Below, piece after piece: positions 48,923 through 60,236 of a stretch of 64,000 nucleotides of DNA (positions within the stretch are counted from its first letter, which is position 1; every line of letters starts with the position of its first letter). A program made the translations under genes and the position numbers. The stretch lies in assembly GCA_020628095.1 (NCBI GenBank), contig JAHDFP010000003.1:62001-126000 (forward strand), read 5' to 3'. The DNA is from Saprospiraceae bacterium (GTDB lineage Bacteria > Bacteroidota > Bacteroidia > Chitinophagales > Saprospiraceae). Under the pieces are notes generated by a model. It saw only the letters and a list, made by a program, of their open reading frames with translations, was not told the DNA's origin and ran no database searches.

Positions 48923-50140
48923 TTAATCAACTACTGTAATTGTGCCCGTTATAATCTTGCTTTCTTGATCTGTATTATTTTCAAAATTCACTTGAATTAT
49001 ATATACGTATACACCAGTTACTACTGACTTGTTTTCACTTCTCCCATCCCAATTGAATAAATTTGAGGATTGGTAAACTACGTTACCCCATCGGTCATAA
49101 ATAGAAGCAGAATTTATTTCATAGTTACAATTTGAAGAAATCGAAACTTGATTATTTGGACTTTGATTTGATCGTGAAATCACATTTGGTACGTAAAATT
49201 GACAATTAGATTCCGTCATACATTCCTCTACTTCTAAAAAAAAGTCTTCTTGAAAAAAACAATCTCTATAAGTACCTCTTAAGGTATGATTACCTCTTTC
49301 ATAAATATCAAGAGAATCAACTAGCAAATTATCATCAATTGAAATCTCATCAAATGGAAAATCTGATTTATACAATTTTAGAGAACTTCCGCAAGGAATA
49401 ATTGTATCGGAAAAATTAAAAGATAATTTTTCGACAATAACGTTATCTATTAAGACATAGGAAAGATTGTATTGTACATCATCATTATTAGGAATATTAG
49501 TCCTATCCTTCCATAATATCTCTAATTCTTCTTCACCCCAAGCTAAAAAATTACCTATAACAAATTGTTTCTCTTTGCCGCTTGCTAGGTAACAACCTTC
49601 TATTAAAACATAATTTTCCACATCATATAAAATACCGTTTTCATTATTGATATCTGATTCTATATTGAGTATGTAATCGTACTTATCTTCTCTTATTGGA
49701 AGGTTTCGTGAATCTTCTATAAAAGCCAAAGAAACTTGATCTGTTGTCATTCCATACCATGGTTTATCCCATGGGTGACTTGGTTTTGCTTGGAAACTAA
49801 CTTTATAACTTTCTCCTTCAACTAGCTCTTCTGTTAGAGTACCGATTAGATGTTCTCTATAAGGAAAGGAATCGACTGACGGATTCCAACCAACTCCCCC
49901 ATTTGAAAGACCAAAGCATCCATTTCCTTCAAATGCTGTTACATAATTTTTATTATTCCAAACCTGGCAACTGTCATGAATGTAATCCACACTTCCATAC
50001 CTCTTCCAACCCGTCCAAGAATCTTCGGAAATATTACATTTATCTTCTTCCATATTTCCATTTATTACTAAGTTTTGTGAGTTACATGGAAACTGAAGTG
50101 AAAATATAAGTATAATGATTTGGATATATTTCATTGGCAA
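48923..50140 (-). CDS. Secreted protein with T9SS type B sorting domain, paralogue 1
   Basis: A 405-residue protein; ATG 50134 is an alternative start giving a cleaner signal peptide (MKYIQIIILIFSLQFPCNS). The body begins NLVINGNMEEDKC and resembles a carbohydrate-binding-like jelly roll shared with the next gene. The last 95 residues are a CHU_C/type B sorting domain (FYVPNVISRSNQSPNN, SIYDRWGNVVYQSSNLFNWDGR, GVYVYIIQV). It would be exported by T9SS and is often linked with gliding motility or SprB-like surface proteins. Ligand unknown. Confidence 0.9.
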   Translation of the reverse strand: MPMKYIQIIILIFSLQFPCNSQNLVINGNMEEDKCNISEDSWTGWKRYGSVDYIHDSCQVWNNKNYVTAFEGNGCFGLSNGGVGWNPSVDSFPYREHLIGTLTEELVEGESYKVSFQAKPSHPWDKPWYGMTTDQVSLAFIEDSRNLPIREDKYDYILNIESDINNENGILYDVENYVLIEGCYLASGKEKQFVIGNFLAWGEEELEILWKDRTNIPNNDDVQYNLSYVLIDNVIVEKLSFNFSDTIIPCGSSLKLYKSDFPFDEISIDDNLLVDSLDIYERGNHTLRGTYRDCFFQEDFFLEVEECMTESNCQFYVPNVISRSNQSPNNQVSISSNCNYEINSASIYDRWGNVVYQSSNLFNWDGRSENKSVVTGVYVYIIQVNFENNTDQESKIITGTITVVD

Positions 50141-50513
50141 TAATTCTTATTATATCATCATTTATGCTCTGTTGATATTTGATAGCTACCCATAAGAAAA
50201 GAAGATACGATTTATACAAACTTCTTTTAATTAACTATTGTTATCGAACCCGAAATAATTTTACTTTCACGATCTGTAGTGCTATTATCAATGCTCACTT
50301 CAATCATAAACACGTATACACCCGTTACTACAGACTTGTTTTCACTTCTGCCATCCCAATTAAATAAATTTGAGGATTGGTAAACTACGTTACCCCATCG
50401 ATCATAAATAGAAGCAGATTTTATTTCATAGTTACAATTTGAGGAAATCGAAACTTGATTATTTGGACTTTGATTTGATCGCGAAATCACATTTGGTACG
50501 TAAAATTGACAGT
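48926..50513 (-). repeat. Near-identical 3' modules of two tandem T9SS type-B genes
   Basis: The last about 280 bp of the two genes (48926-49202 and 50230-50512) match closely. Over a 195-base comparison I count about eight mismatches (near 96 percent identity), whereas the protein bodies just upstream are clearly diverged. The change is abrupt at the Cys-Gln-Phe-Tyr codons. This suggests recent gene conversion or module exchange of the sorting domain. Confidence 0.85.
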
Positions 50514-51444
50514 CTGAACATGAACGAAGATCAACTCTAAAAATTTTATCCTTAATACATGTACCTCTATATGCTGTGATTGTATAATCACCTTCTTGTT
50601 TGATAGTAATATTATCCTTCTCTATTCCATCAAGATACCATCTATCATAACCTAAGGAATCTTTACGGAGACTCAAGCTGTCGCCAATGCATATAATAGT
50701 ATCATTAATAGCTATATCTGGCACATGAATAACCTCAACATTGTCAACTAGAACATAGGATTTATTACTAAACCAAGAAAGTTCTGATTGTGAAGCATTT
50801 TCTCTATCATTTCTTAGCGTATCAAGTTTCGTAGCTCCTAATTCGAGGAAATTACCTAGCATAAAACCAGTTTCCTTTCCAGTAGCTTCATAACATGATT
50901 CTATCTGTTTATATTCTTGATAATTATACAAAATACCATCATGATTAACTATGTCAGGGTCAAAAAATAGAAATTCAATATAATTACCATTTTCGTCACG
51001 AGTTCTAAATTGCAAAGAATCTTGGCGAAAGACCAATGATATCTGATCTGATGTCATATAGTTCCAAATGTTATCTGCGTATGCCGAGGGTTTCACCCAG
51101 TAACTTACACTATATGATTGACCTTGCTTAAGGGTATCCGATAAAGAAGCTATTGCATATTCCCTTGCATAAAAAGTATCTTGATTAACTATATCATAGC
51201 CTCCTGTATACAATCCTATAGCTCCTCGTCCTTTAAACGGAATCCAATATTTAGTTCGTTCATTAATATAGCTACAACTATAATGAATATGGTCTGCTGT
51301 ATTATGTCTTTCCCAACCCTTGATCTCCTCGGTTCTCCAATAAGGACGACAACTATCAATTTCAATATTGCCGTTTACAACTAGATTTTGACCTAATATA
51401 TATGTCGAAACAAAGTGAAACAATATGAATTGATAAAATCTCAT
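50227..51444 (-). CDS. Secreted protein with T9SS type B sorting domain, paralogue 2
   Basis: A 405-residue paralogue of the downstream gene. It shares the NLVVNGNIEIDSC beginning, TADHIHYSCSYIN, SDQISLVFRQDS and YVLVDNVEV features at moderate identity, and an almost identical C-terminal sorting domain. Signal peptide about residues 1-18. The jelly-roll-like body is of the kind seen in glycan-binding or adhesin proteins. The gap between the two genes is 86 bases. Confidence 0.9.
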   Translation of the reverse strand: MRFYQFILFHFVSTYILGQNLVVNGNIEIDSCRPYWRTEEIKGWERHNTADHIHYSCSYINERTKYWIPFKGRGAIGLYTGGYDIVNQDTFYAREYAIASLSDTLKQGQSYSVSYWVKPSAYADNIWNYMTSDQISLVFRQDSLQFRTRDENGNYIEFLFFDPDIVNHDGILYNYQEYKQIESCYEATGKETGFMLGNFLELGATKLDTLRNDRENASQSELSWFSNKSYVLVDNVEVIHVPDIAINDTIICIGDSLSLRKDSLGYDRWYLDGIEKDNITIKQEGDYTITAYRGTCIKDKIFRVDLRSCSDCQFYVPNVISRSNQSPNNQVSISSNCNYEIKSASIYDRWGNVVYQSSNLFNWDGRSENKSVVTGVYVFMIEVSIDNSTTDRESKIISGSITIVN

Positions 51445-52590: not shown

Positions 52591-54051
52591 ATGCGACTAA
52601 ATATAAATGGCGTTGTGACTAAAAAGAAGCTTATTCTTCCAGATCAGTTTGAGCCCTCTGAACACTGGTATCCTAAAGCACTCAATGCGACAATCCATCC
52701 CATGATTAATTTCTTTCTTAATCTATCACAAGAAAGGGTGATCACTCGATATTGCCACATGCATCCGACAGTGGATAAGGTCAAGTTAAGAGAAGTCCTT
52801 AATCATCGGTCTAAGTATTTTTTATGGGCTGGCGCGGACTTACTGAATGTGACCTCGGCATCTGGCAAAAGGCAAATGGTAGTCATAGAGAATAACTCCT
52901 GCCCGTCTGGTCAGAAGTCGATGCCTCTATTAAATGATAATCAAGAACAGGGTAGTTACAGACTAATGGTGGAAAGGACTTTTAAGCCAAGCCTAAAAAA
53001 TTTAAGAAACAAAATCCAAGGGGGGTTAGCGGTGCTGTATGATAAGAACCCTATGGAAGTATCTGGTTATGCAGAAGTAATAGCCGATGTTATGCAGGAA
53101 CCTGTACATTATGTTAGTTATTACAAAAACGAAAGCAATCCAGAAGCAAAATTTATCGACGGGATATTACATGTGAAGGAAGCTCAAGAATGGCTCCCCA
53201 TAAGGGCGGCATTCCGATATGTAACCCAAAAACCATGGAATAGAATTCCAGTCAATTCTAAAACCAAAATTTTAAATCCAACGATCGCGTGTCTGGCTGG
53301 AGGAAGAAATAAAATGGTGGCCGCAAAAGCCTATGACATATTTAATGCAGAACTACAAAGCTATGGTCTTAAGATTAATATTCCTGAGACAATATGGGAT
53401 GTAAGCAAAAATGAAATTCCATTGTGGGTAAAGAAGTTGGGAGGTCATGCTGTAATCAAAGTGCCTTATAGTAATGCTGGTCAAGGCGTCTATACTATAG
53501 TCAACGAAGCAGAACTAGATGCATTTATGAACTTAGAATTTGATTACGATTTGTTTATTGTCCAGAGCCTTATAGGAAATTCTAATTGGAGTAGTACTAC
53601 TTCTTCGGGTAAATTGTATCACGTAGGTACCATACCAGATAATAAGAACCAAACCTATGTTGCTGATATAAGAATGATGGTCAGTTCCACTCAGAACGGT
53701 ATTAAACCATTATGCACTTATGCGCGTCGTGCCGCAAAACCGTTGATAGATAATATTACTAATGGGACTGATAGCTGGTCCATGCTAGGGACAAACCTAT
53801 CTATTAAGAAACCTGATGGCACCTGGGATAGTGATACTAATAGATTAGTCCTTATGGACAGACGAGATTTCAACAAATTAGGTGTGGGCTTAGATGACCT
53901 TATAGAAGCCTACATACAGACTGTTTTGTCAATGGTGGCCATTGATAAAATGGCACATACTCTTGTCAATAAACAGGGGAAATTCAGAATTAAATTATTC
54001 AAAAGTCTCAACGATGACCAGAGTCTACTGGATGAGATAATGGTTGATTAG
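52591..54051 (+). CDS. Circularly permuted ATP-grasp amide ligase-like protein
   Basis: A 486-residue protein started at ATG 52591 (a TTG 33 bases upstream is less likely). The segment VVIENNSCPSGQKSM (residues 97-111) corresponds to the VLEDNxRxPSGxSY motif of circularly permuted ATP-grasp proteins. NPTIACLAGGRNKMVAAKAY (229-248) matches their NxxGxGxxDDKAxY region, and HAVIKVPYSNAGQGV (286-300), with Lys290, matches the ATP-binding lysine and glycine-rich loop. Such proteins are predicted to form amide bonds using ATP. It heads the polyamine cluster, 104 bases before the arginine decarboxylase. The family call is from motif order and is not a database result; the substrate is unknown. Confidence 0.72.
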   Translation: MRLNINGVVTKKKLILPDQFEPSEHWYPKALNATIHPMINFFLNLSQERVITRYCHMHPTVDKVKLREVLNHRSKYFLWAGADLLNVTSASGKRQMVVIENNSCPSGQKSMPLLNDNQEQGSYRLMVERTFKPSLKNLRNKIQGGLAVLYDKNPMEVSGYAEVIADVMQEPVHYVSYYKNESNPEAKFIDGILHVKEAQEWLPIRAAFRYVTQKPWNRIPVNSKTKILNPTIACLAGGRNKMVAAKAYDIFNAELQSYGLKINIPETIWDVSKNEIPLWVKKLGGHAVIKVPYSNAGQGVYTIVNEAELDAFMNLEFDYDLFIVQSLIGNSNWSSTTSSGKLYHVGTIPDNKNQTYVADIRMMVSSTQNGIKPLCTYARRAAKPLIDNITNGTDSWSMLGTNLSIKKPDGTWDSDTNRLVLMDRRDFNKLGVGLDDLIEAYIQTVLSMVAIDKMAHTLVNKQGKFRIKLFKSLNDDQSLLDEIMVD

Positions 54052-54072
54052 AGAGAATAAAATAAAAGTTAT

Positions 54073-54156
54073 ATGTACGGAAAAGTCTTTTATGAACGGA
54101 TGAATGGTAAACCTTTTACAAGGATTTTAAAAAGTAAAAAGGAGAATTATTACTGA
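54073..54156 (+). CDS. Possible 27-codon minigene before speA
   Basis: ATG 54073 opens a 27-codon frame (MYGKVFYERMNGKPFTRILK, then SKKENYY) whose TGA shares a base with the speA ATG (TGATG). The peptide is basic and aromatic. The tight coupling suggests it is translated, either as a leader affecting speA or as a small peptide product. No family is known and a chance ORF remains possible. Confidence 0.4.
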   Translation: MYGKVFYERMNGKPFTRILKSKKENYY

Positions 54157-55583
54157 TGAAAAAAACATACTTTGACCTAATAGAACAGAGTTACTACTTT
54201 CCTCAAGAAGGCTTCGATCTTACTAACGGTTATCTCACATTTCATGGTATTTCTCTTAAGTACCTCATAGAGAAATACGGAACTCCATTGAAACTTACAT
54301 ATCTACCTCGTATTGGAGAACAAATACGAAAAGCAAGAAACTTATTTAATAGAGCTATTAAAAAAAGCCAGTACAATGGTAATTATCATTATTGTTATTG
54401 TACCAAATGTTGTCACTTTTCTCACGTTTTGAAATCTGCTCTTAAAGAAAAGGTTCATCTGGAAACCTCCTCTTCGTTTGACATAGATATAATCTTTAAT
54501 CTTTTACAAGAAGGACACTTAGACAAAAGCTGTGTAGTGGTACATAACGGTTATAAGACTGATGAGTATCTACAGAAGATTATACAATTGAATAAGATTG
54601 GATTTAAGAATTCGATTGTTGTTTTGGATTCAATAACGGAGGTTTCGAGGATAAAGGAGTATGCAAAAAGCCATAACATTCGTCTTAAAGTAGGCATACG
54701 CATAGCAATAGATGAAGAGCCACAATCTGCATATTATACTTCTCGATTAGGTATCAGACCTTCAGAAATTATTCCATTATATAATGAGCAAATTAAGGAT
54801 GATGATTATGTAACACTTAAAATGATTCACTTTTTTATTGATTCTGGAATAAAGGATAACGTTTATTACTGGGGTGAGTTTCATAAGTCTTTAAGATACT
54901 ATGTAGAACTAAAAAAGCTATGTCCTGACCTCAAAGCATTGAATCTGGGAGGTGGATTTCCTATTAGAAATAACCTAGGTTTTGAGTATGATTACGAATA
55001 TATCATTAATGAAATCATACGCAACATTAAAGAGTGTTGTGAAGAATTTGGTATAAAGGAGCCGGATATTTTTACTGAGTTTGGAAAGTATACAGTAGGA
55101 GAGAGTGGCGCTATCATCTTTGAGGTCATAGAGCAAAAACAACAAAATGATAGAGAGGTCTGGTATATGGTCAATAATAGTCTGATGAATACCATACCTG
55201 ATGCTTGGTCTATTCTAGAAAAGTTTATCCTTTTGCCTATCAACAAATGGCAAAATGAATATACCAAAGTGAATATAGGAGGAATCAGCTGTGATCATTC
55301 GGATTACTATAATTCCGAAGATTTTAACCAACAATTATTTCTTCCCAAGTATGAGGATCGGGATACTGAGCCACTATATATTGGTTTTTTTCATACAGGA
55401 GCTTACCAAGATTCTATAAGTGGTTATGGAGGTATTAAGCATTGTCTTATACCTGCTCCCAAGTTAATTATCATAGACAGAGACGAAACAGGAAACTTTG
55501 TAGATTATGTATATCGCAATGAACAGACTGTAGACGAAATGCTATCCATTTTAGGTTATAGGACACAACAATCTGCCTTATGA
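54156..55583 (+). CDS. speA: Biosynthetic arginine decarboxylase (PLP type III fold)
   Basis: A 475-residue enzyme of the alanine-racemase-fold decarboxylases, in the short Bacteroidota version of SpeA. It starts with LIEQSYYFPQEGF; the PLP lysine is Lys84 in YCYCTKCCHF (SSHF is more usual); RLGI, HFFIDSGIKDN, LNLGGGFPIRNN (phosphate-binding glycines) and EFGKYTVGESG follow. GGISCDHSDYY, near residue 377, includes the catalytic Cys-Asp pair, and GAYQDS closes the site. It makes agmatine from arginine. The next gene, agmatinase, overlaps by four bases. Confidence 0.94.
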   Translation: MKKTYFDLIEQSYYFPQEGFDLTNGYLTFHGISLKYLIEKYGTPLKLTYLPRIGEQIRKARNLFNRAIKKSQYNGNYHYCYCTKCCHFSHVLKSALKEKVHLETSSSFDIDIIFNLLQEGHLDKSCVVVHNGYKTDEYLQKIIQLNKIGFKNSIVVLDSITEVSRIKEYAKSHNIRLKVGIRIAIDEEPQSAYYTSRLGIRPSEIIPLYNEQIKDDDYVTLKMIHFFIDSGIKDNVYYWGEFHKSLRYYVELKKLCPDLKALNLGGGFPIRNNLGFEYDYEYIINEIIRNIKECCEEFGIKEPDIFTEFGKYTVGESGAIIFEVIEQKQQNDREVWYMVNNSLMNTIPDAWSILEKFILLPINKWQNEYTKVNIGGISCDHSDYYNSEDFNQQLFLPKYEDRDTEPLYIGFFHTGAYQDSISGYGGIKHCLIPAPKLIIIDRDETGNFVDYVYRNEQTVDEMLSILGYRTQQSAL

Positions 55584-56422
55584 AAACATTTGCCGGAATA
55601 TCCCAAATGTACTCTACTCTGAGTACCTCTCAGATAATTTTACAGTCCATACCTTTTGATCAAACAAGTACTTGGGGTAAAGGTGCGGATAAGGGTTTTA
55701 ATGCTTTCCTGGAGGCTTCTATGAATATGGAATTATATGATATAGAAACCAACTCAGAGGTCTATCGTAAAGGAATCTACATGCCAGAGCGATGGGATGG
55801 TTTTGAAAACCCAGAGGATATGTATAAAAGCGTATACCGTAGAACCAAAGAGTTACTCGAAACAGATAAGTTTTTGACTTTCTTCGGCGGAGAGCATTCC
55901 ATTAGCATAGGTATTATAAAGGCTTTTTACGAAAAATTCCAAAATCTTACTGTGCTGCAATTGGATGCTCACGCTGATTTAAGACCATCTTATCATGGGT
56001 CTCCATATAACCACGCATGTGCCCTACATGACGCTAGTCAAAACTGTAACCTTATACAAGTAGGCATAAGGAGTATGGATATTTCTGAGCGTCAATATGC
56101 AGATATGTATAAGACATATTTGGCTGAGGAAATTATCAAAGTGGATGATTGGATTATTTCCTCGATAGACCAGATGACTGATGATATATATATAACCTTA
56201 GACTTGGATGTATTAGATCCATCAATTATGCCTGCGACAGGGACACCAGAGCCTGGTGGCCTGGATTGGTACACTTTAATTAATTATTTATTCATTGTTT
56301 TTGATAAGAAGAATGTTGTTGGTTTTGATATAGTAGAGTTGGCGCCTATAGCCAACCTTCATTCACCACAATATCTTGCTGCAAAACTTTATTACAAAAT
56401 GCTTTCATACAAATTCTTTTGA
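55580..56422 (+). CDS. speB: Agmatinase (ureohydrolase)
   Basis: A 280-residue arginase-family enzyme with the Mn-binding motifs GGEHSISIG (His106), LDAHADLR (Asp129, His131, Asp133) and DLDVLDPSIMPATGTPEPGG. It would split agmatine into putrescine and urea. The ATG overlaps the speA stop (ATGA), so the two are co-translated. Clear enzyme class; agmatine preference comes from context. Confidence 0.94.
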   Translation: MKTFAGISQMYSTLSTSQIILQSIPFDQTSTWGKGADKGFNAFLEASMNMELYDIETNSEVYRKGIYMPERWDGFENPEDMYKSVYRRTKELLETDKFLTFFGGEHSISIGIIKAFYEKFQNLTVLQLDAHADLRPSYHGSPYNHACALHDASQNCNLIQVGIRSMDISERQYADMYKTYLAEEIIKVDDWIISSIDQMTDDIYITLDLDVLDPSIMPATGTPEPGGLDWYTLINYLFIVFDKKNVVGFDIVELAPIANLHSPQYLAAKLYYKMLSYKFF

Positions 56423-56424
56423 AA

Positions 56425-57399
56425 ATGCAAAGAGGAAACGTTTCACAATTTTTAATAAACCATTACAAACATTTTAATGCAGCTGCACTTGTAGATGCTG
56501 CTATGGGTTACGAAGAACAATTGCAAAAGGGAAATAAAATGATGGTCACGCTGGCCGGTGCCATGAGTACCGCAGAATTAGGAAAATCTTTAGCGGAAAT
56601 GATACGTCAGGATAAAGTGCATATCATAACATGTACTGGAGCTAATCTAGAAGAGGATGTTTTTAATCTAGTGGCACATAATCACTATAAGCGTATCCCT
56701 AACTATCGAGATTTGTCGCCAAATCAAGAAATGGAATTGTTAGAATTGCAATATAATCGAGTAACGGATACTTGTATCCCAGAGGCTCAAGCTATGCGAG
56801 TGATAGAAAAGCACCTATATGATGTTTGGGCCAGAGCCGATGATAGTGGAGAAAGGTATTTTCCGCACGAATATTTTTATCAAATAATTCGTGAAAAAAG
56901 ATTAGAGAACCTTTATCAAATAGATGCAAAAAATAGTTGGATTCTGGCCGCAGCGGATAAAAACATTCCCATAATCGTTCCGGGATGGGAAGATTCTACA
57001 TGTGGAAATTTCTTTGCATCATACTGCATAGAGAATGACTTAATGCCAACTACTGTGAAGTCAGGTATAGAATATATGATGTATTTAGCCAAGTGGTATA
57101 TACGCAATACCAAAAATAGTGAAGTTGGATTTTTTCAGATTGGGGGTGGAATTGCAGGAGATTTCCCTATATGTGTTGTGCCTATGCTTCATCAGGATCT
57201 TCAGCTAGACGACATTCCAGCATGGTCATACTTCTGTCAGATAAGTGATAGTACAACCAGCTATGGTTCTTATTCCGGAGCTGTTCCTAATGAAAAAATA
57301 ACTTGGGGTAAACTCTTGCCAGATACACCTAAATACATCATAGAATCGGATGCTACAATAGTTGCGCCTCTGGTCTTTGCATATTTGCTCAATTGGTGA
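56425..57399 (+). CDS. Deoxyhypusine-synthase-like protein (probable homospermidine synthase)
   Basis: A 324-residue protein from ATG 56425, two bases after the agmatinase stop (TTG 56419 would add two residues). NAAALVDAAMGYEEQL, MMVTLAGAMSTAELGKSLAEMIRQ, IITCTGANLEED and VGFFQIGGGIAGDFPICVVPML are typical of the deoxyhypusine synthase family; Lys296 in TWGK aligns with the catalytic lysine of the eukaryotic enzyme. Bacteria lack eIF5A, and several bacterial homologues make homospermidine by moving an aminobutyl group from a polyamine to putrescine. Product here is inferred from the speA-speB context. Confidence 0.88.
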   Translation: MQRGNVSQFLINHYKHFNAAALVDAAMGYEEQLQKGNKMMVTLAGAMSTAELGKSLAEMIRQDKVHIITCTGANLEEDVFNLVAHNHYKRIPNYRDLSPNQEMELLELQYNRVTDTCIPEAQAMRVIEKHLYDVWARADDSGERYFPHEYFYQIIREKRLENLYQIDAKNSWILAAADKNIPIIVPGWEDSTCGNFFASYCIENDLMPTTVKSGIEYMMYLAKWYIRNTKNSEVGFFQIGGGIAGDFPICVVPMLHQDLQLDDIPAWSYFCQISDSTTSYGSYSGAVPNEKITWGKLLPDTPKYIIESDATIVAPLVFAYLLNW

Positions 57400-57427
57400 T
57401 GAGATTACAGATAAAATCTATTGAGCT

Positions 57428-57571
57428 ATGAAAAATTTGAAAATGTATATAGAACGGTTAACAGAACCCGAATACGGAAAAAAAGTCAAAAGAAAAAATC
57501 CAAAGTTTCCTAAAAGGATCGAAGCCGAAAAGAAACCAAACGAAAAACGCCCTGATAAAAATAAACGATGA
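57428..57571 (+). CDS. Possible 47-residue highly basic peptide
   Basis: ATG 57428 opens a 47-codon frame (MKNLKMYIERLTEPEYGKKV, then a Lys/Arg/Pro-rich tail ending PDKNKR). More than a third of residues are Lys or Arg. The TGA overlaps the next gene's ATG (ATGA), and the frame fills the gap between two same-strand genes, so it is likely translated. I recognise no family. It could be a nucleic-acid or polyamine-related small protein. Confidence 0.55.
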   Translation: MKNLKMYIERLTEPEYGKKVKRKNPKFPKRIEAEKKPNEKRPDKNKR

Positions 57572-57984
57572 TGAAAGGGCTTAAGAAAACACAGAATAGG
57601 AAAACTTTGAAAGTACTAAAGTCTAATATTTCAAAAGTGAGTACAGTAAGACAACTTAAGCGAAAATACAACGATCTCCCTTTGTCTTATCTGTTTGGAA
57701 TAATAGATGAGATAGACTATCAATGTCCAAGAATAGATTCATATATAGATGAAGTACTTGCCTGTAAATCATCTTTAATCAAAGCTCGAAGAGCAAGGAA
57801 GTTGGATTCTAAAAATGCGCATCTTCTAGAGGCAATGTACAAAATCGATCAACTTGACGAAAAACTTGATAGAGATGTCAGGGATAGCTTTATCAAGTTA
57901 AGAGAATACGCTGATCAATGGAAACGTCTTGCATTATTAGCCATTAACGATTCTAAGAATCCTGAGAAATATTTAAAAAAATGA
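57568..57984 (+). CDS. Uncharacterised helical protein of the polyamine/ATP-grasp cluster
   Basis: A 138-residue, Lys-rich, almost wholly helical protein. The start (GLKKTQNRKTLKVLKSNISKV) is very basic, the middle has YLFGIIDEIDYQCPRIDSYIDEV, and the end is coiled-coil-like. No membrane segment, signal peptide or known domain is visible. It overlaps its neighbours on both sides by four bases, so it belongs to the operon. Confidence 0.75.
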   Translation: MMKGLKKTQNRKTLKVLKSNISKVSTVRQLKRKYNDLPLSYLFGIIDEIDYQCPRIDSYIDEVLACKSSLIKARRARKLDSKNAHLLEAMYKIDQLDEKLDRDVRDSFIKLREYADQWKRLALLAINDSKNPEKYLKK

Positions 57985-58286
57985 ATAAGCCCAGAATAAT
58001 TAAGGATTACGAAAAACTATCAGAAGAGATAGTCGCCAAAATTAAACTCCAATATCCTCATGGATTTGAGAAGAAACTGATATTATTTAAAAATAGTAAG
58101 GGTCAGCTAATTAGCGCCTTACCTTTTGAGACAACAGATTATTATTATCTCATTAGAATGACAAGGAAAGAAGCATCTGAGATTATAGAACAGGATGAAG
58201 ATTATACAGACGAAGGATATTTAAGTATTGATGCTCAAGAAAGATTATCTGAACAAATATCGGAATCAACGGATGATTATGAATAA
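57981..58286 (+). CDS. Conserved small acidic protein (Bacteroidota hypothetical)
   Basis: A 101-residue protein beginning IIKDYEKLSEEIVAKIKLQYPHGFEKKLILFKN, with SALPFETTDYYYLIRMTRKEAS and an acidic end. This pattern recalls a widespread Bacteroidota protein of unknown function; I know of no role. Overlaps upstream (four bases) and downstream (eight bases) indicate translation as part of the cluster. Confidence 0.78.
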   Translation: MNKPRIIKDYEKLSEEIVAKIKLQYPHGFEKKLILFKNSKGQLISALPFETTDYYYLIRMTRKEASEIIEQDEDYTDEGYLSIDAQERLSEQISESTDDYE

Positions 58287-59274
58287 CTTAAAGGTTCTCA
58301 TCCTAACGGATCACTCTAATCATACTTCCGAAAACTCTTTATATGCTCTGTCCAAAGTATTATTTGGTCATGACCAAGTGAGTACAGTCCATATTGCTAG
58401 TCGCAATTATTATGGTAACCATTCTTTTTTTCTCGGATACAAAAAGAAATTTTTATGGGTAAATGAGATAGATAATACTTTTGAATACAGTGAGTTAAAT
58501 CATCCTTTAGAAACAAATCTGATTCAGATAGAGGTAGATGATTATGATTTTATATGGCTTAGATTACCCCCACCGCTTTCAGAAGATTTTCTTATCTATT
58601 TGAGCGATGTATTTGATGAGAAAATTATAATTAATGATCCATTATCTATATACGAAACTGGTTCTAAGGCATTCTTGTTCAACTTTCAACAGTTTTGTCC
58701 TCCTATGAGATTATGTCGATGTGTAGAAGAAATAAGGGAATTCAGTAACAACCACCCAATAGTACTCAAGCCATTAAGAGAATATGGTGGAAAAGGTATT
58801 ATAAAGATTGGCGGAGATTGGATTTATGATGGTAGGGATAAATCCTCCTTGGAAAGCTTTTTGATTCATTATGACAAACAACCACTGGAATATTTGGCAG
58901 TCAAGTACTTAGATAATGTACATCAAGGCGATAAGAGGATTATCGTTATAGATGGTCAGGTGATGGGTGCTTCTCTGCGGTTACCTGCTGAGAATTCATG
59001 GATTTGTAATGTTGCTATGGGAGGTACCTCTCATCATACCGACATTAGTAAAGAAGAATTGGATATCGTCGAAGCTATTAATCCATTGCTTAATGCTAAA
59101 GGAATTATTATGTATGGACTGGATACATTAGTAGGCGATGATGGAAAAAGAGTATTATCAGAAATAAATACGACAAGTATCGGAGGGCTGCCACAAATAG
59201 CCAGACTGACTAAAAAACCTTTAGTAAAGAATGGCATGGATCTTATGGTCAACTATGTACTAAAAAGAATATAA
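58279..59274 (+). CDS. Glutathione-synthetase-like ATP-grasp ligase
   Basis: A 331-residue protein from ATG 58279; longer frames start inside the preceding gene. The order of motifs follows bacterial GshB: WLRLPPPLSEDFLIYL (mRxdPP region), IINDPLSIYETGSKAFLF, VLKPLREYGGKGI (ATP lysine Lys164 and glycine loop 170-173), DKRIIVIDGQVMGASLR, LDTLVG and SEINTTSIGGLPQI (Glu295, Asn297 metal ligands). It should join a carboxylate to an amine with ATP. No gamma-glutamylcysteine synthetase gene is near, and the polyamine neighbours suggest a different substrate. Confidence 0.85.
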   Translation: MNNLKVLILTDHSNHTSENSLYALSKVLFGHDQVSTVHIASRNYYGNHSFFLGYKKKFLWVNEIDNTFEYSELNHPLETNLIQIEVDDYDFIWLRLPPPLSEDFLIYLSDVFDEKIIINDPLSIYETGSKAFLFNFQQFCPPMRLCRCVEEIREFSNNHPIVLKPLREYGGKGIIKIGGDWIYDGRDKSSLESFLIHYDKQPLEYLAVKYLDNVHQGDKRIIVIDGQVMGASLRLPAENSWICNVAMGGTSHHTDISKEELDIVEAINPLLNAKGIIMYGLDTLVGDDGKRVLSEINTTSIGGLPQIARLTKKPLVKNGMDLMVNYVLKRI

Positions 59275-60236
59275 TGATAGAATCTGTCAAGACGATCAGT
59301 GCTTTGGATTTTACTTCTATACCGAGAGGTGTTATTAGTCGATATTATTTAAAGTTGGTGGAGGATGGCATGGGTGTGCCTATTCAGATTCCTTTAATGG
59401 TTGCGAGAGGAAACGAAGACGGACCTACTTTTGGCCTAACAGCTGCAGTCCATGGTAATGAACTTAACGGTATACCCGTTATCCAGAGATTATTTAAAGA
59501 AATAGACCCTCTTAGATTAAGCGGCACAGTAATAGGCGTACCTATACTCAATGTGCCTTCTTATCTCAGGAAGAAAAGAAGATTTCTAGACGGAGTTGAT
59601 CTCAACCATATTATGCCAGGTAAGAAGGATGGGACAGTTAGTCAGGTATATGCTTGGAGAGTTGTAGAAAAGTTGGTCAAGCATTTTGATTATCTACTGG
59701 ATTTACACACGGCAAGTAATGGAAGAATAAACTCATATTATATAAGGGCCGATATGAGCGACGAAACCGTCAGAAAAATGGCCTTACTACAAAATGCTCA
59801 AATCATCGTGCATAATCCACCTAGTGATGGGACACTAAGAGGTACAGCGGGGGAGCTAGAAATACCAGCAATCACATTAGAGGTTGGTAATCCTAATTTG
59901 TTTCAGAAAGGTATGATCAGAGATGGCCTTACGGGCATACATAATTTGCTAAGCCATCTAAGGATGACGGATTCGGAAATGGAAGAAATCTCTGATGAAA
60001 CTGTTATTTGTAAAAGATCATTTTGGATGTATAGTGACTCTGGCGGCCTCATAACCGTACATCCCAATGTGACAGACTTAGTCAATAAAGGAGATCGAAT
60101 TGCCACTCTTCGAAATATTTTTGGAGATATCATAAAAGAATATGAAGCACCTTGTGATGGAATTGTTATCGGTAAAAGCGTTAGTCCGGTCAATCAGACG
60201 GGAGGACGTATTTTACATCTAGGTATAGTAAAATAA
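59274..60236 (+). CDS. Succinylglutamate desuccinylase/aspartoacylase family hydrolase
   Basis: A 320-residue zinc hydrolase. The metal site is His60 and Glu63 (AVHGNELNG) with His145 (LLDLHTAS); Arg103 in RRFLDGVDLNH binds substrate in relatives; Glu203 (ITLEVGN) fits the catalytic acid. The C-terminal part (about 240-320) is the beta-rich lipoyl-like domain usual in this group. It would cleave an N-acyl amide bond. The ATG overlaps the stop of the GshB-like gene (TAATG), so ligase and hydrolase are made together and could form and break the same bond. Confidence 0.9.
   Translation: MIESVKTISALDFTSIPRGVISRYYLKLVEDGMGVPIQIPLMVARGNEDGPTFGLTAAVHGNELNGIPVIQRLFKEIDPLRLSGTVIGVPILNVPSYLRKKRRFLDGVDLNHIMPGKKDGTVSQVYAWRVVEKLVKHFDYLLDLHTASNGRINSYYIRADMSDETVRKMALLQNAQIIVHNPPSDGTLRGTAGELEIPAITLEVGNPNLFQKGMIRDGLTGIHNLLSHLRMTDSEMEEISDETVICKRSFWMYSDSGGLITVHPNVTDLVNKGDRIATLRNIFGDIIKEYEAPCDGIVIGKSVSPVNQTGGRILHLGIVK

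Follow-up and report, generated by a model that had tools for sequence, protein, structure and literature searches.

The window analysed here is a stretch of 64,000 nucleotides (nt) from a Saprospiraceae bacterium (contig JAHDFP010000003.1, positions 62,001 to 126,000; the genome, G000 in our numbering, comprises 4.2 Mb in 33 contigs), and our subject is a run of ten plus-strand open reading frames (ORFs), recognised from the ORF list and family searches, that are packed between window positions 52591 and 60236. The run begins with what we call gene 1 (52591..54051), which encodes an ATP-grasp ligase of an unnamed family, and ends with genes for a GshB-like ATP-grasp ligase (58279..59274) and an AstE/AspA-like zinc amidohydrolase (59274..60236); these three are referred to below as the trio. 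Between gene 1 and its two partners lie three genes for polyamine supply, encoding a speA-like arginine decarboxylase (54156..55583), the agmatinase SpeB (55580..56422) and a protein like deoxyhypusine synthase (DHS; 56425..57399), together with two tiny ORFs and two small proteins that are taken up later. Successive intergenic spacings are 21, -3, -4, 2, 28, -4, -4, -8 and -1 nt, giving overlap at six of the nine junctions (gene calls throughout are simple longest-ORF calls). This tight, largely overlapping packing, with its two small proteins and two tiny ORFs, was already described in the original prediction, whose gene names and coordinates are borne out by the family searches with one refinement, for gene 1; it had proposed, in addition, that the cluster makes and recycles a conjugate of a polyamine.

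Gene 1, the GshB-like ligase and the AstE/AspA-like hydrolase are a stable, co-inherited unit. This was seen in an order-level sample of 149 genomes of the order, 27 of which carry gene 1 while 122 do not (neighbourhoods were fetched for 26 relatives, making 27 loci with the window), and a second sample was made up of the best 80 of 360 gene 1 relatives from a scan of GTDB contigs; fetched loci are numbered L and genomes G. An orthologue of AstE (at least 53% identity) occurs in all 27 genomes with gene 1 and in only one of the 122 without it (G085, a partial match at a contig edge), and an orthologue of GshB (at least 41% identity) in 23 of the 27 and in none of the 122. Next to gene 1 itself, a GshB-like and then an AstE-like gene were found in 22 of the 26 fetched relatives; AstE is present without GshB in L045, L051 and L055, and neither was recognised in L050, the AstE orthologue of that genome (G111) being on another contig. 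Both partners are present at every one of the 22 loci that have flanks of at least 9 kilobases (kb) on each side. Copies L030–L034 (of L056, L064, L114, L107 and L109) are still included in the order-level loci and in the hydrolase and GshB row sets, and were left out of the placement and Arg/His tree counts given below. In a wider sample of the phylum gene 1 is seldom seen, with 9 carriers among 395 genomes. Cultured bacteria that carry the trio include Flavilitoribacter nigricans and Kordia jejudonensis.

What else lies around the trio? When the genes around the 80 loci were clustered without regard to labels, those that came next after GshB and AstE were speA (32 loci), speB (25) and DHS (23), and a polyamine gene was near the trio in 33 of the 80. 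Of the 22 loci with both flanks of at least 9 kb, 11 have a polyamine gene no more than about 10 kb away, where about 0.1 would be expected for a single gene located by chance (20 kb out of 4.2 Mb). The polyamine genes occupy five types of placement: in one, that of the window, they stand between gene 1 and GshB, and in the other four they are upstream or downstream, on one strand or the other. The finished tree has 70 rows; on it the linked/unlinked state requires 16 changes, of which well-supported branches force nine, and all labels together require 21. For each of the five placements, the forced changes number at least two to five (an earlier quick tree gave 13 changes for the unlinked label and 19 for all labels). 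The linkage is therefore not one frozen gene order. The 70 rows are biased, since linked loci were admitted with any flank length and unlinked ones had to have 4 kb upstream and 6 kb downstream, and the less biased measures of linkage are the 11 of 22 just given and the 4 of 27 in the order-level sample. Association extends beyond the order: L146 and L147, from another order of the class, read speA-speB-DHS-smB-x-VOC-gene1-AstE, L145, from another class, reads gene1-AstE...speA-speB. In Kordia jejudonensis (L135) speA, speB, DHS, smB (one of the small proteins) and the trio all fall within 13 kb. The genes speA, speB and DHS are not obligatory for the trio, yet they are its commonest neighbours.

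It was for gene 1 that the earlier description, a circularly permuted ATP-grasp protein, had to be refined, since a predicted structure speaks for it and comparisons of sequence do not. Nothing in Pfam or NCBIfam matched gene 1 above cut-off, including CP_ATPgrasp_1/2 and GSP_synth; there was no match to Escherichia coli Gss by hhalign, a PDB profile search gave no link to known permuted ATP-grasps, and PF14403 was not found in 20 relatives. A sequence-level tie to the known permuted ATP-grasps was accordingly dropped. The AlphaFold model (predicted local distance difference test, pLDDT, 87; predicted template modelling score, pTM, 0.90) has as its best PDB matches by Foldseek 3n6x, a putative glutathionylspermidine (GSP) synthase (E 1.2e-8, probability 1.00), and the eukaryotic glutathione synthetase 1m0w (E 8.5e-8, probability 1.00), with template modelling scores that are low, at 0.37-0.40 for these two and about 0.3-0.5 among the top matches; E. 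coli YjfC and unpermuted ATP-grasps (the RimK-type 5i47 and others) match as well, with E from 8e-7. In an alignment of 18 orthologues (mean identity 70%), an invariant E-x-N (E100/N102) precedes K290 and a glycine-rich NAGQG loop (295-299), and in the GshB-like protein of the window the order is reversed, with YGG at about 168 and SEIN at about 293. If the E-x-N and glycine-rich motifs of the two proteins are equivalent, as we assume, the motif order in gene 1 would be what circular permutation gives. The model thus supports the view that gene 1 encodes a circularly permuted ATP-grasp with a predicted fold of the glutathione-synthetase/GSP-synthase type.

The second ligase is more readily placed. 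It matches PF02955 (1.2e-32) and, by phmmer, 1gsa (2e-18), with motifs conserved in 93 rows, and it falls below the cut-offs for glutathione synthase (134.6 against 299 bits for TIGR01380, 152.7 against 272 for PRK05246). A glutathione-type route seems unlikely in the window's genome, because the two gamma-glutamylcysteine ligase (GshA) families covered by our search, PF04107 and PF04262, were not found there, and classical glutathione or glutathionylspermidine synthesis was dropped as a candidate on the same ground. Eight of 18 trio genomes do have weak, partial matches to PF04107; the ORFs concerned are about 630-680 residues long.

The hydrolase belongs with PF24827 (8.4e-32). All of the 95 rows (the window being represented twice) share its residues H60, E63, H145 and E203; judged by motif, these would be the counterparts of the zinc ligands and the catalytic glutamate of aspartoacylase (ASPA), a set that the trio hydrolase appears to have in common with aspartoacylase, succinylglutamate desuccinylase and DoeB. 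It departs from that family at the NR motif, where the window protein has DLNH: the solved homologues 3cdx, 3na6, 6twl/6twm and 2qj8 carry NR, and the trio hydrolases carry NH. In human ASPA, N70 and R71 contact the substrate, and R71 adds to a positive entry channel, according to the available part of the source (PMC10998430); the position of that arginine, 112 in our numbering, is His in 92 of the 95 rows, including the window, and Arg in L045, L051 and L055, all of which lack GshB. Arg together with absence of GshB was also found in L145-L147. Counting distinct readable loci, those with GshB have 85 His and no Arg, and those without it 2 His and 6 Arg (the 90 His rows with GshB reduce to 85 distinct loci; the motif was unreadable in L081, L099 and L111; and second AstE copies with Arg, at 42-49% identity, in L086, L106 and L120 were left uncounted, that of L106 being the only copy on its contig). 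On a quick tree of 51 of the 93 rows, Arg and His are exchanged just twice, each time in parallel with GshB. We read the altered motif to mean that the hydrolase may act on what the two ligases make together, and that such a compound may lack the free carboxylate or negative charge normally met by the arginine, as a polyamine amide would.

If a polyamine is involved, which one? The three genes that could lead from arginine through putrescine to homospermidine, part of the original prediction, are confirmed in the window. The speA-like protein is a pyridoxal-phosphate-dependent arginine decarboxylase of short form (475 residues; PRK05354 6e-56, at 190 bits, below the cut-off of 369), and SpeB matches TIGR01230 above cut-off. 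The DHS-like protein, of SpeY type, belongs to the DHS family by PF01916 (2.8e-41) and falls below the cut-offs of all NCBIfam models for homospermidine proteins and DHS; its best PDB chain is 8put (1.3e-11), and a TWGK motif, the lysine of which we take to be catalytic, lies inside the stretch that aligns with solved DHS chains. It is probably a homospermidine synthase. A DHS-like enzyme, SpeY, makes homospermidine from putrescine, as stated in the accessible part of PMC9992855. There is also a route by agmatine coupling, in which CdmS joins two agmatines (PMC10981699, from the part available), and by analogy the enzyme of the window might use agmatine instead of putrescine. Its position downstream of arginine decarboxylation resembles the SpeY and CdmS systems, which differ in that no ligase partners of the trio kind are described for them in the available portions of the two accounts (PMC9992855, PMC10981699).

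The trio does not need homospermidine, however. DHS is absent from 17 of the 27 gene 1 genomes, and homospermidine as such is therefore not required; ten of these 17 have the route through NspC (carboxynorspermidine decarboxylase), although in one carrier (G028) the gene is split and below cut-off. All 18 trio genomes that are at least 90% complete have speA, and of these seven have DHS, nine NspC (including the split, below-cut-off case), none both, and two neither (G065, G128). Near gene 1 the second route can be seen in L092 and L096, where genes of the NspC family, for a carboxynorspermidine-synthase-like protein, for agmatinase and for SpeA are about 5-10 kb away (families were checked on the L092 proteins), and in L083, which has agmatinase and NspC near the trio. 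The trio therefore goes with either triamine route, by DHS or by NspC (carboxyspermidine-type).

The components of the cluster belong to known superfamilies, and a ligase plus a hydrolase acting on polyamine amides is already a known kind of system. The reaction of ATP-grasp enzymes is phosphorylation of a carboxylic acid followed by its condensation with an amine, and in the fungal E-64 pathway a decarboxylase that supplies polyamine is clustered with two amide-forming enzymes, yielding acid-amino-acid-polyamine amides (PMC12568646, in the part available). One of these, Cp1B, resembles the ligases considered here in being an ATP-grasp enzyme, with the three-domain architecture of human glutathione synthetase; the pathway differs in that its second enzyme, Cp1D, is an adenylating amide synthetase, in that its product is a fungal natural product, and in that the accessible description includes no deconjugating hydrolase (PMC12568646). 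The likeness to Gss (E. coli b2988) is that, by annotation, a ligase and an amidase serve one polyamine conjugate, and that the model of gene 1 finds its best predicted structural match in a putative GSP synthase. Here, in contrast to Gss, there are three separate proteins, the hydrolase is of the zinc-dependent AstE/AspA kind, profile comparison gives no match to Gss, and the window's genome has no match to the two gamma-glutamylcysteine ligase families. Clusters of hss and gss in beta-proteobacteria have the potential for making glutathionylhomospermidine (PMC9992855, in the part available). No description of a ligase-ligase-hydrolase module such as the trio was found in the literature searched, mostly without subscription papers.

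Is the product of the trio a polyamine amide? We hold the chances to be about even that the trio makes and cleaves such an amide, with the identity of the amine and the order of the steps as we infer them, and the following course can be envisaged. SpeA, SpeB and the DHS-like enzyme would take arginine to agmatine, putrescine and probably homospermidine; gene 1 would activate a carboxylic acid as its acyl phosphate and couple it to the amine, to give a basic conjugate; in the lineage of the window the GshB-like ligase would add another unit; and the zinc hydrolase would cleave the amide, restoring the pool of free polyamine. These roles are suggested by analogy with the E-64 and Gss systems. 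Somewhat further, and as a tentative proposal that could well be wrong, the trio may represent an undescribed polyamine-conjugate system of Bacteroidota, in which the ancestral form was one ATP-grasp ligase with a zinc deconjugase next to speA, speB and DHS, a GshB-like ligase was recruited later, the conjugate was extended as the arginine of the NR motif gave way to histidine, and homospermidine or spermidine is used, whichever is made. If that were so, the trio would indicate that a bacterial family whose members are mostly uncultured makes an unknown metabolite, a function would be given to a ligase family for which no Pfam or NCBIfam match was found, and amide-forming enzymes for polyamines would be on offer; in any case, repeated linkage makes the guess of a polyamine amide a directly testable biochemical claim.

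The idea of a conjugate made and recycled thus gains from the co-inheritance of the trio, its repeated linkage to polyamine genes and its altered hydrolase motif. Several observations weigh against it. DHS-family genes are commoner without gene 1 than with it (81 of 122 genomes against 10 of 27, six of the 81 matches being only 27-30% identical). Polyamine genes are missing from the surrounding 10 kb or so at eleven of the 22 well-flanked loci, and the order-level sample, which is less selected, has just four linked loci among its 27 (the window, L043, L044 and L046), the other 23 being unlinked, some of them on short contigs. Hence, on the question whether the polyamine genes mostly occur apart from the ligases, and the ligases among unrelated neighbours, the evidence is divided: many DHS genes and half of the well-flanked loci say yes, while the joint inheritance of the trio and the preponderance of polyamine genes among its neighbours say no. 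Alongside the most distant gene 1 relative fetched (L148, 47%) there are no trio partners and no polyamine genes; L131 and L133 have His in the hydrolase and yet no GshB, their contigs ending about 1 kb beyond gene 1; two tree events underlie the Arg/His change, and a sign test on them gives p 0.5, with significance out of reach; and nearly all the data come from one family, largely from metagenome bins.

The trio could instead make and recycle a small peptide or an amino-acid amide without polyamine, for example a compatible solute, and share only regulation or a neighbourhood with the polyamine genes, both responding to salt or growth state. Genes for mechanosensitive channels (MscS) near the trio at 6 of the 26 loci (L040, L043, L045, L046, L050 and L055, with Pfam checks on three of them) would fit this, the six including all but one of the four loci at which no GshB-like gene was recognised alongside; so would the universal stress protein and Na/H exchanger genes of L043 and the presence among the nearest solved hydrolases of DoeB, an N-acetyl-diaminobutyrate deacetylase. 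In the larger sample, however, just 3 of the 80 loci have MscS nearby and 33 have a polyamine gene, so that MscS was set aside, as poorly replicated, as a sign of an osmolyte; and loss of the arginine from the NR motif would suit a free amino-acid product poorly. A polyamine-free amide of this kind appears unlikely to us. Alternatively, the trio could be a relative of the RimK-AstE pair found elsewhere in the window's genome, with a role unrelated to polyamines, such as the tailoring of cell wall or peptides, and its closeness to polyamine genes could be a matter of inherited gene order. The pair, in which a distant AstE adjoins a RimK gene, gives this some footing, as do the half of the well-flanked loci that are unlinked, but inherited order accords badly with five types of placement and many changes on the tree, and with linkage recurring in another order and another class; we regard it as quite unlikely.

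Very unlikely, in our estimation, is a RimK-like modification of protein, in which the ligases would put polyamines or amino acids on a small acidic protein, at its side chains or its C-terminus, and the hydrolase would remove them. The candidate for such a substrate would be smB (57981..58286), which has an acidic tail and occurs near the trio in 13 of the 80 loci, and the separate RimK-AstE pair might be cited as a parallel. But smB is present in just 10 of the 27 trio genomes and in 15 of the 122 without gene 1, its C-terminus is not conserved, and it has no fold match in the PDB with E at or below 0.001, for which reasons we rejected it as a LysW-like carrier or graspetide precursor. The window's genome has a second copy (G000:C7:152778-153068).

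The remaining ORFs of the cluster are small. Between gene 1 and speA is a mini-ORF of 27 residues (54073..54158), the TGA stop of which overlaps the ATG of speA. It was found in ten loci (the window, L057, L058, L059, L060, L066, L067, L074, L093 and L102), with a variable start and a conserved C-terminus, ENYY in nine and ENCY in L067, and with synonymous third-position changes. Its exact DNA motif is confined to those loci in the 1.8 Mb fetched (two further matches are copies of the window), and 20 further speA upstream regions were inspected, the start being located in 13. The mini-ORF is a candidate leader peptide for the arginine decarboxylase, although its conserved end may reflect selection on the ribosome-binding site alone. 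A lysine-rich ORF of 47 residues (57428..57571) is hardly conserved, with weak matches only (the best in L093, E 0.13), and smA (57568..57984), like smB a small protein of no known family, has relatives in 5 of the 80 loci.

Finally, we draw attention to some further genes. The RimK ligase and AstE-like pair mentioned above, identified by Pfam, is at 6631-8481 of L150 (contig 30 of G000), its distant AstE showing 30% identity, and various other genomes in the order have distant AstE and RimK-like matches that adjoin each other. A fusion of a GNAT acetyltransferase with a carbon-nitrogen hydrolase (about 510 residues) is near gene 1 in 8 of the 80 loci (L082, L085, L096, L097, L122, L127, L134 and L135), lying between speB and speA in L082 and L097 and adjoining speA in L085. 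A protein of the DUF155/RMND1 family follows speB in two distant loci (L043, 10773-11555; L145, 15243-15746). Elsewhere in the window, on the minus strand at 48923-51444, are two tandem genes for proteins of 405 residues that are alike by eye, mainly in the C-terminal third.

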